Shown: positions 20,932 through 48,122 of the stretch, piece after piece | How positions within the stretch are numbered: the first letter of the stretch is position 1 | How the letters are laid out: each line of letters begins with the position of its first letter | Assembly (NCBI GenBank): GCA_021732845.1 | Contig: JAKFUF010000022.1 | Location: 1-64,000, forward strand | Source: Planctomycetaceae bacterium | GTDB taxonomy: Bacteria; Planctomycetota; Planctomycetia; Planctomycetales; Planctomycetaceae | DNA: 64,000 nt | Direction of reading: 5' to 3' | Program-made: the position numbers and the translations under genes | The notes under the pieces: generated by a model | Databases searched by the model: none | What the model was told of the DNA's origin: nothing | What the model saw: the letters and a program-made list of their open reading frames with translations, nothing else

Positions 20932-21468
20932 CGGGTTAAACCATGGACAACCGCGCCCTGCGCGGTGCCTCTTCCCGAAGAGTGTGCACTTCGCTTTTCG
21001 CTACACGATGTAATTCTGCATCCAGTTATCAAGGTCGCGTCGGAAGACAGATGCAGGGACCCGCGATGCGAATTGATACTGTCCGGCGATTGGAAACTTC
21101 ACCCAGGATAGCATTTCGTCCGCACGTCAAAGCCAGAATTTGCCCGCCTAAATTGGAACTTCACCGCCATCTCGGTATGCTGGAAATTTGCAACGATTGG
21201 CACAAATTGCCCAGTGGTAAAGGCTGGCGACTATCTCCCCTGTGATAGCTTTTAGTCACGCAAGATTCTCGCCACGAGGGATTTTGTGCATGCAAAAATT
21301 GACGATCAGAAAGCGGACGAATTTGCGCGATCTGCGGTTGGCATGGTCAAAGCTAGAACACATCGCACTGCCCACCAAGCTGACCCACGGCATTCACGTC
21401 TGTCGACGGTGACACGCGCGCTGCAAGCCGCCGTGATGGGGAATCTGTCCTTAGGGAGAAGGCCCGAC
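20932..21468 (+). other. 537-bp gap upstream of the STAND-like gene; contains short direct repeats
   Basis: No convincing gene is seen; a 100-residue frame at 20943-21245 lacks a ribosome site and family features. ATTGGAAACTTCACC (21089-21103) and ATTGGAACTTCACC (21152-21165) form a direct repeat 63 bp apart, followed by a looser GCAACGATTGGCAC segment. Spaced repeats of this kind occur at ends of IS21-type elements, but no transposase is present. The gap is less GC-rich by eye than the flanks. Confidence 0.4.
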
Positions 21469-24400
21469 ATGTGGAATTTAACGGCGAATGATCTCCTGAA
21501 ATTGCAGGGCAGTGGCGGAGTTCCCTTCGCGGATTTCATGAACCGCCTCATCCGCGCGGAAGCCATGCGCTGCGGGCTCGCACAGTCAGAGATCCAAACG
21601 CAAAATCGCACAAATATTAGCGATGGTGGCATTGACGCGGTTGTTCACAAACCAATTGTCAGCAAGAACTGGGATTGGTTTTCGACACCAACATGCTGGC
21701 AGTTCAAGGCAGAAATGACTTCTACGCGTCCGCAGCTCAAGAAGGAAATCAACAAGGGGTTTGTGAAGGAGCTTCTTTTGCAGGGTTACGCCTATCGACT
21801 TTGCATTCTAGGAGATTTGACCGCAAAAAAACTCAAGTCGAAGGCCCCGTCCAAAGTCGAGTCGTGGGAGCAACTCCTGCAGGAGGAAGCCGCAAAGATC
21901 AATCCAGCCGCCCCGCCGCCCCGTGTCATCCATGGCGGCGACCTCATCCATTGGGCGGGCGAGTTCCCAGCTCTCGTCAAGCAACTGCGTCCGGAATTGA
22001 TTCCGGGCATCCTCTGGGATGTCTGGAGTGCAGCATGTCGCGAGGTTACGCCGCACTATGTGGCAAACGCCGCCTGGCAAGAGGCCCGCAGCAAGATCCA
22101 TTCTCATGTCGATTTTTCAGCAGTTTGCAAGCTGGCATGCCTAGCCATCGGCGGGGAGGCTGGTGTGGGCAAGACCAGGCTTGTCTTCGAGTCTCTCGCG
22201 GAAATAGATGCTGCCCCTGGCCTCGTGATTCAAACTTTCGATGACCAGACCGCGAAACAGTTTGCCGCGTTCTTCGCTGCCATCGGGGAAAATCGAAATG
22301 TCATTCTCGTTGCGGACGAATGCCTTCCGGAAACGGAAGAGGCGCTCAACAATATGCTCCTGGGCCACACCAAGAGGATTCGCGTAATTTGCATGAACAC
22401 TAGCCGGGCGCGACTCCCAACGGCGTCGCGCCCGGTGTGGCTCAAGTCTAGGGATCTGACGAACACGGTCGAAATCTTGAAGGCGAACTTCCCGCTGGTT
22501 TCAGAAGATCGACTCAGGCGCAATGCCGATATCGCTGGAGGCTTCGTGCGACTGGCCGCCGACATGTGCGAGCATGAACCGGAGTCTAGCCACGCGGCTC
22601 ACCTTGAGATCCCCGATCGCATCACTACTTATGTCGAACTTCGGCTCGGTGAGTTTCGTCCCTTGATTTCATTCATCGCGTTGTTCCACAAAGTTGGCTT
22701 CAAGGACGACGTGGAGGATGAACTCCAGGCACTCTGCAGAATGTCAGGGCAGCATGCGCAGCAGTTCCGCGACGCGGTTCGTAGCGTGAAAGAGTCTCCT
22801 GGTTTCGTTGTTCAAGCGGGCCGTTATTGGTACATCAGCCCTCAAATCGTCGCGCAACTGCTGTTCAACGAAGGCTGGAATCACTGGGTAAAGAACGATC
22901 TGAAATCTTTCTTTTCGAACTTGCCGGAACCGCTTGTTGCTCAATTCATCGAACGAGCCGGACAATTGGGGAAAGTCGAGGTGCGCGACTCGGTCGCGGC
23001 GTTTTTTCGGTTCTGGTTCGGTTCCCTGACCATCGAACAGCTTGCTGATTCGGCCGCCATTCGCCGCATTGAAGCGGTTGTCGAGAACGCGCCCGGTGAG
23101 TTTCTTCCGCAGCTTCGCAGCCTCATTGAGTACAGTTCCGGGGAAAGACTGCTCGGCATCCTAGGCGACTCTCCGACAGCAAGTTGGGGTCCGCGAAGAA
23201 CTGTTGTCTGGCTGCTGGAACGACTTGTTTCCTTCCAGGAGTATTTTGTCGACTGCGAAGCATGTCTGTTTCAACTTGCGCTTTATGAGTCTGAACCGAG
23301 CATTGGGAACAATGCCACGGCAGTCTGGCGAAACCTATTCGGAGTTCATTTGTCCGGCACGGCAGCGCCGTTTGCGGCGCGGCTGGAGATTTTGAAGGAG
23401 AGGATTCGAAATTCGACGGGTGCCGCGCTGACGTTGGCATTTCAGTCGCTGAAGGACATCCTGCAACCGGCAACCGGCCACATCGTCGGCCCGTCATTGG
23501 TGTCGGGACGCATGCGGCCTCCCGAGTGGACTCCCGCATCTCAAACTGAAGAGCGGGCGTGTTACAGGATGGTACTGGAATTTTGTTCCGAATTGATGCG
23601 AGAGCACGGGACTGTCCGCCGTGAACTGGCGGTTCACACGCTAATCCGGCGCATCATTTTCTTGGTTAGAAAGGGATTGCTGGGCGTTTTGATGGACGTG
23701 TTGAGACCGGACCGACTCAGTGTAGACGAGTCTGCACAATTATTGCGTGAACTTGACCGCTTTCTGGAGGCCACTCTCACACTGGAACCAGAACGAATTG
23801 ACGAGAAACGCCCCTACGCCGCCAAATTGCGAGAGTGGCTCGCCTTGTTCCGCCGGTCCGATCTGGATGGCCGACTTCGTGAACTCTGCGCCAGGGAACC
23901 CTGGGATCGTCGGTTCGCTTATGAGAGGGCGGCGACGACCGACGAAATGGATGTGCTGGCGGGCGAAATTGTTCAGAATCCGCGGCGTCTGGAACCTCAC
24001 CTTGAGTGGTTGGGAACAGCAGAGGCCACGTCGGCGGAGAGGCTGGGATTCGCGGTTGCGCGTTTAGATGATTCGTTTATCTGCGCGGAGTTGATATTCA
24101 GACAGTCGATTGAGTTTAACACCGCCGCACTGCTGCGGGGCTATGTGCGAGGAGTGGTTAGTTCCAGGCGGTCGCCCAGCCAGGGAGTGTTGGATCTCAT
24201 GGATCAATTGCAGGCGTCCAGGCCCGAAATCGCCGCCGATATCCTCGTCGTTGGCGGTGACGATTTTGATGCGGTCAACCGCGTTCTGCAACTGGTCGAA
24301 ACTGCACTGCTCACCCCAAACTGGCTGTCAACCTTTGCCATGGGGGTTGGGAGTCGGTGGTTGACGGTAAGTGAAATCGGTCGGATTTTGGCCCCGATGG

Positions 24401-25191
24401 TGAAGTCAGCGGCGAGTGGCGATCAATATTCTGTCGAGGCGGGAATCCGCTTCGTTTATCGCGTGCTGCGTAACGAGGAACGCCATACGACAGGGCGGTG
24501 TCTTGACGAGACAACAATATGTGGCGATGTGGTGACTCTAATCGAGCATGCAACTCATTTAGTTGGAAAGCGACTGTCCTCCGAATGGGCTCATATCGCG
24601 AAGGCACTAGCCGGTTATGATGCTCAGAAGGTCATACCCATGCTGGCCTCGGCGCTGGCCAGCGACAGTCTGGCACTCGCAGACGAAGCCGAAAAGTCGT
24701 TGGAGGAATTAATTCCAACCCATGGACAAGAAGTTTTGGAGGGTTTCGGATCAGTCCTATTGGACCCAGACCAGGGATGGCGGCTCCAGATACGGGTCTA
24801 TCGAGACTTGGTTAGGCAGCTTTCCTCCGGAAGTGTGTTGGACTGGATTCGTGGTCGCGGGCTGGCCGCCGCGCGGGCGATTGCCAGACATCTTCCAGCG
24901 CCCTACATTGACGGCGAAGGGAATCCAATCGTGCCCCATTTGCTGGATGTGGTCCTTCGCGAATTCGACGATGAAAAAGTTCTGCTGAATTTCCAATGTG
25001 GCATGCACTCACATGAAGCTTGGAATGGGGACGATTCGGCGAGATTTCGACAAGAAGCCGATGAAGCCCGGATGTTCCTTCGGCATCCGAATCCCCGTAT
25101 CCGTGAATGGGCGACCGCGGAGATAGCCGACAGAATGGCATTCGCGGAGATGGAGGACCGCCAGAGCGAGGAGCAGTTTTTGCCTTCATAG
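21469..25191 (+). CDS. Large nuclease-NTPase: predicted N-terminal PD-(D/E)xK domain, P-loop NTPase, long helical C-terminus (STAND/Avs-like)
   Basis: The start at ATG 21469 is supported by GGGAGAAGG upstream; an ATG at 21286 would add 61 residues. The 1240-residue protein has three parts. Residues about 15-130 contain SDGGIDAVV (51-59) and CWQFKAE (76-82), matching the D...QxK core of Mrr/Cap4-type PD-(D/E)xK nucleases. Residues about 195-420 form a P-loop NTPase with Walker A GGEAGVGKT (228-236) and Walker B-like VILVADE (278-284). The remaining 800 residues are helical, probably superhelical repeats. This three-part design matches antiviral STAND sensors (Avs type), where the C-terminal repeats recognise phage proteins and the nuclease executes. 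Composition appears less GC-rich than neighbours, and a transposase remnant follows. Function is inferred from architecture only. Confidence 0.87.
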   Translation: MWNLTANDLLKLQGSGGVPFADFMNRLIRAEAMRCGLAQSEIQTQNRTNISDGGIDAVVHKPIVSKNWDWFSTPTCWQFKAEMTSTRPQLKKEINKGFVKELLLQGYAYRLCILGDLTAKKLKSKAPSKVESWEQLLQEEAAKINPAAPPPRVIHGGDLIHWAGEFPALVKQLRPELIPGILWDVWSAACREVTPHYVANAAWQEARSKIHSHVDFSAVCKLACLAIGGEAGVGKTRLVFESLAEIDAAPGLVIQTFDDQTAKQFAAFFAAIGENRNVILVADECLPETEEALNNMLLGHTKRIRVICMNTSRARLPTASRPVWLKSRDLTNTVEILKANFPLVSEDRLRRNADIAGGFVRLAADMCEHEPESSHAAHLEIPDRITTYVELRLGEFRPLISFIALFHKVGFKDDVEDELQALCRMSGQHAQQFRDAVRSVKESPGFVVQAGRYWYISPQIVAQLLFNEGWNHWVKNDLKSFFSNLPEPLVAQFIERAGQLGKVEVRDSVAAFFRFWFGSLTIEQLADSAAIRRIEAVVENAPGEFLPQLRSLIEYSSGERLLGILGDSPTASWGPRRTVVWLLERLVSFQEYFVDCEACLFQLALYESEPSIGNNATAVWRNLFGVHLSGTAAPFAARLEILKERIRNSTGAALTLAFQSLKDILQPATGHIVGPSLVSGRMRPPEWTPASQTEERACYRMVLEFCSELMREHGTVRRELAVHTLIRRIIFLVRKGLLGVLMDVLRPDRLSVDESAQLLRELDRFLEATLTLEPERIDEKRPYAAKLREWLALFRRSDLDGRLRELCAREPWDRRFAYERAATTDEMDVLAGEIVQNPRRLEPHLEWLGTAEATSAERLGFAVARLDDSFICAELIFRQSIEFNTAALLRGYVRGVVSSRRSPSQGVLDLMDQLQASRPEIAADILVVGGDDFDAVNRVLQLVETALLTPNWLSTFAMGVGSRWLTVSEIGRILAPMVKSAASGDQYSVEAGIRFVYRVLRNEERHTTGRCLDETTICGDVVTLIEHATHLVGKRLSSEWAHIAKALAGYDAQKVIPMLASALASDSLALADEAEKSLEELIPTHGQEVLEGFGSVLLDPDQGWRLQIRVYRDLVRQLSSGSVLDWIRGRGLAAARAIARHLPAPYIDGEGNPIVPHLLDVVLREFDDEKVLLNFQCGMHSHEAWNGDDSARFRQEADEARMFLRHPNPRIREWATAEIADRMAFAEMEDRQSEEQFLPS

Positions 25192-25349: not shown

Positions 25350-25764
25350 AGGTTGGGCGGTGCGGCCAATAAGGTGAGTTGCCAATCTTTGATTGTTGGT
25401 GGCGTTGCGGATCATGTCCACATGCTGTTTCAACTGGGACGAACGATTTCCGTATCGGAAGTATTGGGGACGATCAAATCCAATTCATCGCTGTGGTGGT
25501 CTTGCTCGCTCCGGAACCCGTGGCGCGGATGGGCGGCTCGCGCCGCCTTCTCCATCCGCTGTCGGGGTTCCTCGCTCGCTGGGGGTCAACCAGACCCGCG
25601 GCTTGCCGAACGCGTTTCACTGGCAGGGCGGATACGCTGCGTTCTCGGTGAGCCAGCCGAAACTTGAGGCGGTGCGGGAGTACGTCCGCCGGCAGCCCGA
25701 ACATCATGCCACGCAATCAAAACCCTCCCTCAAAGCAGCCGGTCGGTTGCCCCCAAATCCGTGA
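25350..25764 (+). pseudogene. Decayed REP-associated (Y1/IS200-like) transposase fragment
   Basis: In one frame (about 25366-25499) the sequence reads SLIVGGVADHVHMLFQLGRTISVSEVLGTI. This matches the HUH-containing core (here HVH) of REP-associated tyrosine transposases. About 120 nt later, in another frame, NAFHWQGGYAAFSVSQPKLEAVREYVRRQPEHHAT matches the C-terminal part of the same family. The two parts are separated by unrelated GC-rich sequence, and the N-terminal half is not recognisable in 25192-25350. It is therefore a multiply disrupted relic, next to the STAND-like gene. Confidence 0.8.
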
Positions 25765-31358: not shown

Positions 31359-32396
31359 TCAACGATGCACCTGCTCGTGGTGCCAGCAGGCCACCAGGTG
31401 TTCGCCGTCCACGGAGCCCGGCAGCGACACCAGCGGTGGCTCCTGTTTGCAGAGATCGGTCGCCCAACGGCAGCGTTCACGAAAGCGGCATCCTGCGGGG
31501 AAACGCGTGGCTGCCGGCACCGAGCCCTCAATCGCCTCCAGCCGGCCCCGCTTTTCATCAACGCGCGGCAGGCTCTTGAACAGCCCCACGGTATAAGGAT
31601 GGCGGGGGTTGTCGAACAGTTCCTGCACCGACGCCCGTTCAACAATCTGGCCCGCATACATCACGGCCACATGGTGTGCCACCTCGGCGACTACTCCCAG
31701 GTCATGCGTGATCAGCAGCATCGCCATCCCGCGCTCGGCCTGCATCTGCCGCAGCAGGTCGAGGATCCGCGCCTGAATGGTGACATCCACCGCAGTGGTC
31801 GGTTCGTCGGCAATCAGCAGTTTTGGATTGCACGAGAGCGCCATGGCGATCATCACCCGCTGCTTCATGCCGCCAGACAATTCGTGCGGGTATTGGTGCA
31901 GTCGGCGCTCGGGGTCGCTGACGTGCACCGCCTTCAGGCTGGCAATGACCTCGTCCTTCACGGAAGTCGTCAGCCGCCGGTGCAGGCGGATCGCCTCGCC
32001 CACCTGCTGCCCGATGGTGAAGACCGGGTTGAGACTCGTGCCCGGCTCCTGAAAGATCATGGCAATGCTGCCGCCGCGGATCGCCCGCAACTCTTCCGCC
32101 TTCAACTTGAGCAGGTCGCGTCCGGCAAAGCGGATCTCGCCCGAGACGAATTCGCCGGGCGGACGGGGGATCAACTGCAAAATGCTGAGCGCGGTGACTG
32201 TCTTGCCTGAACCACTCTCCCCAACGATTGCCAGCGTCTCTCCGGCGGCGATGTCAAAGCTGATTCCGTCCACCGCCTTGGCGGCCCCGGCATCGGTGTG
32301 AAACCACGTTCGCAGGTTGGAGACGGCAAGCAGTGGCTGGGCAGCCGGTGCCGCAGACGTGGCGGGCGTGGCTGAAGCGGCGGGGGAATCAGGCAT
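31359..32396 (-). CDS. Oligopeptide/dipeptide ABC transporter ATP-binding protein (OppD/DppD type)
   Basis: The ATG at 32396 shares one base with the stop of the upstream gene (TGATG), so the two are translationally coupled. The 345-residue ATPase has Walker A GESGSGKT, signature LSGGMKQR, Walker B LLIADEP and switch histidine ITHDLG. The C-terminal oligopeptide-type extension ([12 protein letters not shown], then a Cys-rich [14 protein letters not shown]) assigns it to peptide/nickel importers of the OppD class. No OppF, permease or binding protein is present in the window, so it is an orphan subunit here or has partners elsewhere. Confidence 0.92.
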
Positions 32397-32998
32397 CAAC
32401 GGGAGGCATCCTCGGCGACATAAGCCTTGAGCAGGCGGAGAAATTCACGCAGGAACGGCGTGTTGTCGTGCCAGGTGCGGGCCGAAACCAGGTTGCCGTC
32501 CACAACGCACGGTTCGTTGACGAAGATCCCGCCGACAAACGTGGCGTCCAGGGCGCACTTGGCAACGCTGGTGATCCTCCGCCCCCGCAGACAGTCGGCC
32601 GCGGCGGCAATCTCGACGCCGTGGCACACCGAAGCCACCGGCTTGTTGTTGGCAAAGAAATGCCGGGTGACATCCAGCAGATGCGGGTCGTACCGCAGAT
32701 ACTCCGGAGCCCGCCCGCCCGAAAGAAACAGCCCCACATAATCGTCGGGCTCGATATCGCGAAAGGCGATGTCCGCCTGCAGGTGGTAGCCGGGCGTCTC
32801 CTGCGTGATGTCCCACGGCACCTGGCCGGGCGCTGTCGGCGGACGCTCGTGCAGCACCATGTGGTACAGCCGTTTTTCGGGCGCGGCGACCACGACCTCA
32901 AATCCATCCTCGGGAAGACGGAAGTATGGATACATCGTGTCCAGAACTTCCGTTGCATCGCCGATGACGATCAACACGCGCTTTGGATCGGCGGTCAT
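32396..32998 (-). CDS. DJ-1/PfpI family protein
   Basis: I choose ATG 32998 ([20 protein letters not shown]), since the family fold begins there; an upstream ATG at 33067 would add 23 polar residues. The 200-residue protein is a class I glutamine-amidotransferase-like domain. [10 protein letters not shown] carries the nucleophile-elbow cysteine followed by the typical histidine, and [14 protein letters not shown] is the acid-containing GG-R loop. Family members are chaperones, deglycase-type enzymes or proteases, so the exact role is open. It is coupled to the ABC ATPase gene (one-base overlap), an unusual pairing. Confidence 0.9.
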
Positions 32999-45909: not shown

Positions 45910-47820
45910 TCAGTTCAATTCACTGGCCTCTTCCCAGTGTTCGTACAGTTGGGCCAGCTTCTGTTCCAGCGTTTCACACTCCTTGTGAATCTCCCGCGCT
46001 TTCACTCCATCACGCAGAACTTCGGGTCGCATCATGCTTTCCTGAAGTTCTGCCAGCGTTGACTCGGTCTTGGCAATGTCGGCCTCAATGTCGGCGACTT
46101 TGCGGTAGGGAAACACGCGCTTTCGCTTTGTCGCCGTGACCTCGGGCTTGCGCTGGGCCGTCGCGGTTTTCTCGGCCGCGGCCGCCGCGCGGGCCGTTGA
46201 CTGGGCGGCTTCCTGAGCGGCACGTTTGCGCGAATCGACATAAGCCGAATAGTTGCCGTTGTACAGCCGCCAGCGATCCGGTTCCAAGGCGAACAGTTCG
46301 GTCGCCACGCGGTCCAAAAAATAACGGTCGTGGCTCACAAACAGCAGCGTTCCGTCGAACGCCAACAGGGCGGTCTCAAGCGAGTCGCGGGCCCAGATAT
46401 CCAGGTGGTTCGTCGGTTCGTCCAGCACCAGCACGTTGGCATTGAGCGCTGCGATTCGGGCCAGGGCGACTTTGCTCTTCTCGCCACCGCTGAGGCTGCC
46501 CACCGACTGTGCCACCAGTTCGCCCTTGATCCCAAACTTGGCCAGCAAGTCCCGCATATGGGCGGGAAGAAGATTTGGATTGTTGGGCGGACGCACCGCT
46601 TCAATGCAGTTCAGCGTGGGGTCGACGCTGGTCAGCTTCTGGTCGTAATAGGCGATGTCGACATTCGTGCCGAATCGGACCTTGCCACCGTCCGGCTTGA
46701 GTTCCCCCAGCAGCGTTCTTAAGAGTGTCGTTTTTCCGCTGCCGTTTGGACCAAACAGTCCCAGCCGGTCGCCGCGCGGAACCTGCAGATTCACCTCTTT
46801 GAACAATGGCTCACCGCCGAAACCCTTGGTCAGATCGGTGGCTTCCAGCACCCAGTCGCCTGTGCGGCGGGGCTTGCCAAAGGCCATCGTCAGCGTGGGG
46901 ATGTCCTTGATCACCTCGACGCGCTCCAGCCGCTCCAGCTTCTTCTGCCGATCGTGGGCCTGCGAGGCCTTGCTGTAAAAGTTCTTGCGGATGAACTCTT
47001 CTGTTTTCTCGATGAACTCTTGCTGCTTCTCCGCTGTCTTTTGTTGCAGCTCCTGCCGTTCGCCGCGCAGCCGCCAATACGCGGAGAAATTCCCCGGATA
47101 GTCGGTCACCCGGGCGCTGAACAGTTCCAGCGTTCGCTGCGTCACGCGATCCAGAAAGTACCGGTCGTGGCTCACCACCAGAATCGCCCGGTCGCTGCCG
47201 CTCAGGTATTCCTCAAGCCACTCCGTGGCGGCGATGTCCAAATGGTTGGTCGGCTCGTCGAGCAGCAGCAGGTCGGGGTCCGAGAGCAGCAGCCGGGCGA
47301 GAGCAACGCGGTTTTGCTGTCCGCCGCTGAGCACCGACATCGGCTGGGAAAACTGGTCCGAGGTGAACCCCAGGCCTTCGAGGACTTCCACCACACGGTG
47401 GTCAATGTTGTACGCCGACAATCGATGCAGTTCCTGCGTGGCGGCATCGTACCGCTTCTGCCACCGCTCCCGCGCCTCCGGGTCGGTCTCCGTCGCCATC
47501 TTCTCCGCGAACTCCAGTGACTGCGCCTGCAGCGCGTAAAGCGGTGCCAGGCCGGACTTGGCCTCTTCGAGCAGTGTCGTCTCCGGTCCGAAGTGGTGTT
47601 CCTGATCCAGCAGCCCGATGCGGGCCGACGAATGCAGCTCCACCGTGCCCGAATCCGGTTCGTCCTCGCCGGTCAGGATCCGAAACAGCGTCGTCTTCCC
47701 CGCCCCGTTCGGCCCCACCAGCCCCACACGCTCGCCCGGCCGAATGTCGAACGAAACACCGTTCAGCACCGGGGCGAAATCGAACTGGCGAACAACGTCA
47801 TGGACCGCGAGCAGAATCAT
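45910..47820 (-). CDS. ABC-F family ATPase (duplicated ABC domains)
   Basis: The start at ATG 47820 (MILLAVHDVV) fits the ABC fold; a longer frame adds 25 unrelated residues. The 636-residue protein has two ABC modules with Walker A GPNGAGKTTL and GPNGSGKTTL, signatures LSGGQQNR and LSGGEKSK, and DEPTNHLDI twice. Between them is the P-site-tRNA-interacting linker helix pair. It has no membrane helices and a C-terminal coiled coil (ADIEADIAKTESTLAELQES) as in Uup-like proteins. ABC-F proteins act on the ribosome during translation stalls or antibiotic protection; Uup-like members also influence replication repair. Confidence 0.95.
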   Translation of the reverse strand: MILLAVHDVVRQFDFAPVLNGVSFDIRPGERVGLVGPNGAGKTTLFRILTGEDEPDSGTVELHSSARIGLLDQEHHFGPETTLLEEAKSGLAPLYALQAQSLEFAEKMATETDPEARERWQKRYDAATQELHRLSAYNIDHRVVEVLEGLGFTSDQFSQPMSVLSGGQQNRVALARLLLSDPDLLLLDEPTNHLDIAATEWLEEYLSGSDRAILVVSHDRYFLDRVTQRTLELFSARVTDYPGNFSAYWRLRGERQELQQKTAEKQQEFIEKTEEFIRKNFYSKASQAHDRQKKLERLERVEVIKDIPTLTMAFGKPRRTGDWVLEATDLTKGFGGEPLFKEVNLQVPRGDRLGLFGPNGSGKTTLLRTLLGELKPDGGKVRFGTNVDIAYYDQKLTSVDPTLNCIEAVRPPNNPNLLPAHMRDLLAKFGIKGELVAQSVGSLSGGEKSKVALARIAALNANVLVLDEPTNHLDIWARDSLETALLAFDGTLLFVSHDRYFLDRVATELFALEPDRWRLYNGNYSAYVDSRKRAAQEAAQSTARAAAAAEKTATAQRKPEVTATKRKRVFPYRKVADIEADIAKTESTLAELQESMMRPEVLRDGVKAREIHKECETLEQKLAQLYEHWEEASELN

Positions 47821-48122
47821 GAGGGTGGGAAATTCGGGAAAGACTCCGGAGGCACATCGACGAACCAGGCACCACATGCACCCCCGCGACAGCAATACAG
47901 AGAATAGGACAGTTTCCTAAAAGCGGAAAGCCCCGAGTAAGACTTGCGGGCTTCGAACGTAGTAGCTTGGGCCTGCACACCACACACCACACTGTGCGGA
48001 ACTTCAAAACAAGCACCAGAGACTGATATGCTGTTCCTCGATAAGATTGCACAGGGCGGTCCAGCGCAGAATGCCACCAGTCGTATTGTCGTCCGTAGAA
48101 GGGAATCGCGTCGGCCCGCCTC
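47821..48122. other. 302-bp divergent intergenic region between the ABC-F gene and priA
   Basis: Promoters for both divergent genes must lie here. I see no strong -35/-10 pair, no repeat element and no convincing small gene; frames covering it are extensions of the neighbours. Confidence 0.4.

Follow-up and report, generated by a model that had tools for sequence, protein, structure and literature searches.

In the window analyzed here, a stretch of 64,000 nucleotides from a Planctomycetaceae bacterium (assembly GCA_021732845.1, contig JAKFUF010000022.1, positions 1 to 64,000), one gene on the forward strand encodes a protein of 1240 residues that joins a predicted Mrr-like PD-(D/E)xK nuclease domain, a STAND-type P-loop NTPase, and a helical solenoid of ~750 residues in a single chain. 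We consider it probable, at roughly 0.74, that this gene encodes an NLR-like sensor-effector against phages that acts alone and belongs to the PD-lambda-4_A family. The view builds on the three-part architecture, the conserved catalytic residues, the whole-length homology to PD-lambda-4_A, an effector exchange in a relative, and the patchy distribution, all of which were computed here. The antiviral function, trigger, and activity are inferred, with phage defense being suggested by a distant tested homolog and by the genomic context. An initial annotation of the sequence had described a candidate antiviral protein of Avs-type architecture, with a predicted nuclease, a STAND-like NTPase, and a long helical sensor. 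The observation as such was real, with the motifs SDGGID, QFK, GGEAGVGKT, and VILVADE at the residues named, and the three parts held up, but the filing under Avs did not, as sequence and profile comparison of the entire chain, including the sensor, place the protein in the PD-lambda-4_A family.

Of all PADLOC models, only those of PD-Lambda-4_A matched the protein at E ≤ 1 (E 5e-26, residues 226-690), and a BLASTP comparison with the PD-lambda-4_A protein of E. coli gave 22% identity over residues 1-670 (E 3e-25). To compare the two types along the chain, window-type and E. coli-type sequences were aligned separately with 8 rows each, and the resulting profiles matched in the nuclease (E 1e-17), the NTPase (1e-29), the middle part (4e-25), and residues 700-1240 (2e-23 over 520 columns), while mismatched-region controls gave 0.07 and 0.52. 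In a tree of 28 rows calculated from residues 180-700, the window protein was found in an 8-row clade of Planctomycetota and Cyanobacteria (support 100/99), far from the E. coli protein. On sequence grounds, the window protein is thus a full-length PD-lambda-4_A homolog of a separate clade. It is of the same size as the E. coli protein, which has 1283 residues, and shares with it the homologous nuclease, NTPase, middle, and solenoid parts and the same catalytic and Walker motifs.

The nuclease motifs are S51-D56 (SDGGID) and Q78-F-K80 (QFK). D56 and K80 are invariant across the 33 rows of the alignment, of which 32 are distinct; Q78 is exchanged for serine in two distinct relatives (L002 and L017). 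In the AlphaFold model, the core strands and helices follow the order alpha15-34, beta42-44, beta57-59, beta75-80, alpha87-94/97-104, and beta108-113, so that residues 15-130 are predicted to form the alpha-beta-beta-beta-alpha-beta core of such nucleases and to carry the expected D and (D/E/Q)xK. The lack of a nuclease fold in this region, which would have spoken against the initial annotation, was not observed. When the profile of the N-terminal domain was compared by hhalign with seven aligned Mrr proteins, the Mrr catalytic domain scored 33.3 (E 8e-5) with its GDGGID and QxK in register with the window motifs. The highest score was 19.7 among 200 column shuffles and 18.0 among eight other pieces of the family, each 178 residues long. 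The single-sequence comparison with E. coli Mrr gave P 6e-4, compared with 0.17-0.63 for three unrelated controls. We conclude with fair confidence that the N-terminal domain has an Mrr-like fold; the initial annotation had read the motifs as an Mrr/Cap4 nuclease core. As far as tested, with Mrr as the only reference compared, it is nearer to Mrr than to Cap4. Mrr itself (EcoKMrr), unlike the window protein, is a restriction enzyme that stands alone and has neither an NTPase nor a sensor. A 226-residue open reading frame in an Acidobacteria metagenome-assembled genome (L040:8782-9462) matches the nuclease part only and ends inside the contig, which makes it a truncated copy or a frameshift.

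The Walker A motif GGEAGVGKT covers residues 228-236, and its lysine K235 is kept in 31 of the 32 rows that reach this position. The exception is a relative from a Deltaproteobacteria metagenome-assembled genome (L041:9950-11371), in which Walker A reads GPIGSGTSR without the lysine, Walker B is altered, and the contig ends inside the gene; perhaps it is an NTPase-dead form. Pfam AAA_16 (E 0.0021) and AAA_22 remained below their cut-offs on the window protein, nSTAND_NTPase5 matched one of 13 relatives, and NCBIfam had no match to the window protein. Among proteins of known structure, a single-protein phmmer search of the PDB gave no match, and profile searches with the family alignments A1, A5, and A6 gave weak ones, the best being a de novo designed ATPase (6e-5), followed by FtsY (0.09) and others above that value.

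Residues 1-480 were modeled with a mean predicted local distance difference test score (pLDDT) of 84.7 and a predicted template modeling score (pTM) of 0.84. The comparison by Foldseek that the initial annotation had proposed as a check placed Avs3 first among the PDB entries (E 2.4e-7), with NLR-type and other AAA+ ATPases close behind, namely Apaf-1, NRC3, Sso1545, and NRC4, and then ORC, SAMD9, RuvB, and CED-4. In the VIA comparison, the STAND protein 6mfv reached Z 10.3 (257 residues, root mean square deviation 7.3) and RPP1 Z 10.1 (256 residues). As the VIA list for the N-terminal half spans residues 161-472, it informs little on the nuclease, and the absence of a family from VIA lists excludes nothing. 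In the model, a P-loop NTPase with Walker A and Walker B appears to be followed by a winged helix, and the alignments with NLR and STAND proteins extend to residues 472-480. The window protein resembles NLR/STAND switches such as Apaf-1, plant NLRs, and 6mfv in this NTPase and winged-helix segment (Z ~10), but differs from them in its sensor and effector and has no detectable sequence relation to them.

The long helical C-terminal part that had been read from the sequence was confirmed by the model, in which residues 470-1240 are almost wholly helical (pLDDT 85.3, pTM 0.58). Its structural matches, 49 of them with E ≤ 0.001 and with Z reaching 13.2, are HEAT/ARM solenoids such as SF3B1, transportin, and importin; similarity of this kind may reflect no more than the common arrangement of such folds. 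Mean pairwise identity among the proteins of the window clade is 37-38% in the nuclease, the NTPase, the winged helix, and residues 481-700, drops to 25% at residues 701-1130 (19% at 961-1040), and returns to 38% at the C-terminal end. As this variable stretch is flanked by conserved ends, we propose residues 701-1130 as the ligand-reading sensor. Few stretches of the family are as well conserved as the segment NNAT...LSGT (residues 614-631), which lies outside the nuclease and the NTPase.

These properties bear on the idea of a type IV-like restriction enzyme, in which the NTPase and the solenoid would sense modified or foreign DNA and the Mrr-like domain would cut it, with no protein ligand being involved. 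Such an enzyme would fit the profile match to Mrr, a restriction enzyme for modified DNA, as well as the ability of HEAT/ARM-like solenoids to bind DNA, as condensin and cohesin-loader rows are among the matches. However, the NTPase and winged helix align lengthwise with NLR/STAND switches, the solenoid is most variable in the part that would read a protein ligand, and the family scans gave no recognizable DNA-modification reader or translocase. We therefore regard this explanation as improbable.

Sensors of Avs proteins are of the TPR type. This has been described for Avs5 (PMC12931631), and Avs1-4 are described as having nuclease effectors and sensing terminase or portal (PMC12931631, PMC12724215). 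The window protein resembles Avs1-4 in its order of N-terminal nuclease, central STAND NTPase, and C-terminal helical sensor, and in having Avs3 as its best Foldseek match. It differs in its HEAT/ARM-like rather than TPR-type solenoid, and no PADLOC Avs model matched it at E ≤ 1, for which reason membership in Avs1-4 was rejected; the initial annotation had likewise seen no resemblance of the C-terminal part to a familiar Avs subtype. A relative on a Moraxella osloensis plasmid (L014:5338-9084) combines an Avs4 nuclease (residues 3-248, E 2e-67) with a PD-lambda-4_A body that starts at residue 163. The Avs4 module is thus borne on an NTPase and body of the PD-lambda-4_A type, although it has no profile match to the window nuclease, and we take L014 as a case of effector exchange between Avs4 and PD-lambda-4_A. 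The shared layout, the Foldseek result, and this combination would also suit the notion that the window protein is an Avs protein in function, with a solenoid that recognizes terminase or portal as in Avs1-4, and that the family is a further Avs type. With a sensor that is homologous to that of PD-lambda-4_A and HEAT/ARM-like in the model, and with the negative result for the Avs models, we consider this notion rather unlikely.

The distribution of the family is patchy. Full-length relatives with 31-33% identity were found on one Cyanobacterium plasmid and in one further genome of the Planctomycetota (G285), and when genome contigs were scanned with alignment A3, 11 loci were obtained, belonging to Cyanobacteria, Planctomycetota, Acidobacteria, a deltaproteobacterium, Leifsonia, and Poribacteria. 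Matches were present in 9 of 392 genomes of the phylum, in 3 of 59 related genomes, and in 21 of 72,556 plasmid records. Both genome counts include the own genome, and one of the other two matches among the 59 is a fragment of 40 residues at the end of a contig. Phage records gave no match at E 0.01, and no relatives were among the 344 stretches from viral contigs or the 45 stretches from the initial scan of genome contigs. The PADLOC profile also matched 3 of the same 59 genomes, namely the own genome, G047 (a weak match), and G058. The G058 protein is a close PD-lambda-4_A (984 bits) with 33% identity to its E. coli counterpart along the length of the chain, and no B gene lies in the 1.6 kb remaining downstream on the contig.

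Several relatives lie beside defense-type genes. These are type I restriction genes at L004 and L026, a PDC-M54A-type pair at L031, ATPases resembling HEC-01A (L035) and OLD/AriA (L042), and, at L028, a gene that matches pAgo. PADLOC matched 9 of 10 neighbors that had been chosen for their defense-like look at E ≤ 1e-5, and the Dnd-annotated gene of L005 had no match. Of nine further neighbors, the Fic protein beside L007 matched well, and the others matched weakly or not at all. By eye, L027, L030, L032, L036, and the window gene have no defense-looking neighbor. Second large open reading frames lie immediately upstream of the family gene, in the same orientation, in a Leptospira interrogans plasmid (L015:1404-8253, 1242 residues) and a Rhizobium plasmid (L010:1762-9789, 1372 residues), both with weak PADLOC matches. 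The homologs are patchy and do not occupy one conserved housekeeping locus. A cellular STAND regulator of the MalT kind, with a degenerate nuclease and no role against phages, appears very remote. STAND proteins do also serve in transcription, and the window itself has no phage context, but the patchy distribution, the plasmids and defense genes around relatives, the invariant catalytic residues, and the tested anti-phage homolog all speak against such a regulator.

Some results weigh against the interpretation as a PD-lambda-4_A-type defense protein. At ~22% identity over the N-terminal 670 residues, the window protein is distant from the tested homolog. The Mrr match has an hhalign probability of 61%, Pfam Mrr_cat had no match in the own genome (E 0.01) or in 13 relatives (E ≤ 0.1), and when single sequences were compared, neither the Avs4-type nuclease of L014 (0.10) nor an annotated restriction endonuclease of L006 (0.14) gave a match. 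The Foldseek match to Avs3 has a low TM-score (0.25, root mean square deviation 17.6), and AAA+ rows in the VIA list (ORC, NSF, RFC) tie with STAND proteins on Z, the ORC and NSF rows mostly covering ~180-200 residues. The 19 neighbors of relatives examined with PADLOC were picked by eye, and the scan of 37 open reading frames in the window found no defense neighbors of the gene. Finally, PD-Lambda-4_B had no match in the own genome, with the E. coli control being positive.

In E. coli (L045), the PD-Lambda-4_A gene (2518 bits) is followed by a PD-Lambda-4_B gene of 303 residues (653 bits). As PD-Lambda-4_B is absent from the window genome, in which the family gene differs from its E. coli counterpart also by its clade, a two-gene PD-lambda-4 system was rejected. 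The B gene was likewise not detected in the fetched loci L001-L043 (phmmer, E 10) and, with the exception of two E. coli loci, in L001-L053 including a stretch from E. mori (tblastn, E 0.1); these stretches are mostly local, so that the result covers the vicinity and a distant B gene is possible. We infer that the window clade would not need a PD-lambda-4_B partner. In E. coli EC71 (L044:10898-11810), PD-lambda-4_B is split into two frames beside an intact A gene. In 14 control genomes, PD-Lambda-4_B matched the E. coli control and PD-Lambda-4_A matched none.

For a stand-alone sensor-effector of the PD-lambda-4_A family, we envisage that the resting protein would be inactive and ADP-bound. 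A phage product would bind to the fast-evolving solenoid (residues ~701-1130), ATP binding via K235 would then lead to oligomerization, and the nuclease domains brought together in this way would cut DNA. Cell death or destruction of the phage DNA would precede the release of progeny, as in abortive infection, and the gene itself would spread by horizontal transfer.

The features of the gene and its surroundings are listed in Table 1. The coding region extends from 21469 to 25188, followed by the stop codon at 25189-25191, and lies within a larger open reading frame (21286-25191, 1301 codons). We favor the ATG at 21469 as the start, because AGGGAGAAGG precedes it and because MW at the same start also opens 4 of 11 relatives aligned at the N-terminal end, two of these four being near-identical.

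Table 1. Features of the PD-lambda-4_A-type gene and the adjoining transposase remnant (window positions)
Feature	Positions	Strand	Basis
Gene of the 1240-residue nuclease-STAND-solenoid protein, PD-lambda-4_A family	21469..25191	+	Open reading frame, PADLOC, profile comparison
Shine-Dalgarno-like AGGGAGAAGG	21453..21462	+	Sequence; ends 6 bases before ATG 21469
Mrr-like PD-(D/E)xK nuclease domain (predicted), residues 1-178	21469..22002	+	AlphaFold topology; Mrr catalytic profile match
DGGID, residues 52-56, predicted catalytic D56	21622..21636	+	D56 in 33/33 aligned rows
QFK, residues 78-80, predicted catalytic K80	21700..21708	+	K80 in 33/33 aligned rows
STAND-type P-loop NTPase core, residues 180-380	22006..22608	+	Foldseek/VIA matches to Avs3, Apaf-1, NLRs, STAND 6mfv
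Walker A GEAGVGKT, residues 229-236	22153..22176	+	Sequence, alignment
Walker B VILVADE, residues 278-284	22300..22320	+	Sequence, alignment
STAND module, helical bundle plus winged-helix-like segment, residues 381-480	22609..22908	+	Model secondary structure; NLR alignments reach 472-480
Conserved first part of the helical region, residues 481-700	22909..23568	+	Mean pairwise identity 38%, 49% at 561-640
NNAT...LSGT family hallmark, residues 614-631	23308..23361	+	Alignments A1, A3
Variable all-helical solenoid, proposed sensor, residues 701-1130	23569..24858	+	Low identity; HEAT/ARM-like model
Conserved C-terminal cap, residues 1131-1240	24859..25188	+	Identity 38%, 15 pairs
Broken IS200-like (Y1_Tnp) transposase in two frames, adjoins gene, outside protein	25362..25695	+	Pfam

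As noted in the initial annotation, the gene is less GC-rich than its surroundings (GC 0.558; GC at third codon positions 0.61, compared with 0.77-0.83 in six neighboring open reading frames), and it is isolated and looks mobile beside a transposase relic. Y1_Tnp matched in two frames, at 25362-25499 with E 4.6e-6 and, short of the cut-off, at 25603-25695 with E 0.0017, and the transposase domain lacks its first third. The gene is present as a single copy in the 9.25-Mb draft genome. Upstream lie a PSCyt1/PSCyt2/PSD1 gene and a DUF1501 gene as a pair, and downstream lies a GFO_IDH_MocA gene (Pfam). The remaining PADLOC matches in the window were either weak or attributable to generic ABC ATPases; mad3/mad8-type matches at 31362-32399 and 45913-47895 were rejected as nearby defense genes, as from their sequence and family features we take them to be of this generic type. 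An empty insertion site could not be demonstrated in 37 genomes, since the best matches of the flanking genes were on separate contigs or genomes among the matches listed. The broken transposase, the lower GC content, and the draft state of the genome (262 contigs) could point to a decayed or silent defense gene left behind by a mobile element. With 1240 codons free of stops, intact catalytic and Walker residues, and a Shine-Dalgarno-like site, we consider decay highly unlikely and the gene to be a real, well-formed, defense-type gene, a variant of the PD-lambda-4_A kind.

The defense systems reported by Vassallo et al. (2022; PMC9519451) were phage-selected and cloned, and each lowered the plating of its selecting phage. 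The main text of that paper does not use the name PD-lambda-4; a table in a review (PMC10952713) credits the system to it and lists PD-lambda-4 under P-loop NTPase and not under PD(D/E)XK nuclease. Besides this review, PD-lambda-4 was found in full text only in a genome survey that merely lists it. We found no account of PD-lambda-4 as a nuclease-STAND protein, although one may exist, as subscription papers were mostly outside the search.

The analysis thus offers a likely and testable mechanism class for PD-lambda-4, an orphan defense system of E. coli, and the variable sensor together with the natural Avs4 effector swap provides handles on its mechanism and phage ligand. Whether PD-lambda-4_A and its relatives from bacteria and haloarchaea make up a sixth-type Avs-like class appears to us evenly balanced; these would be single-protein NLR-like receptors with an Mrr-like nuclease, a HEAT/ARM-type sensor, and an effector swappable with that of Avs4, mostly without PD-lambda-4_B. 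The window gene would represent its planctomycete/cyanobacterial branch, and the phage protein sensed by this branch may be neither terminase nor portal. To our knowledge, few defense proteins have been tested in Planctomycetota, and the gene would extend NLR-like immunity into this phylum.

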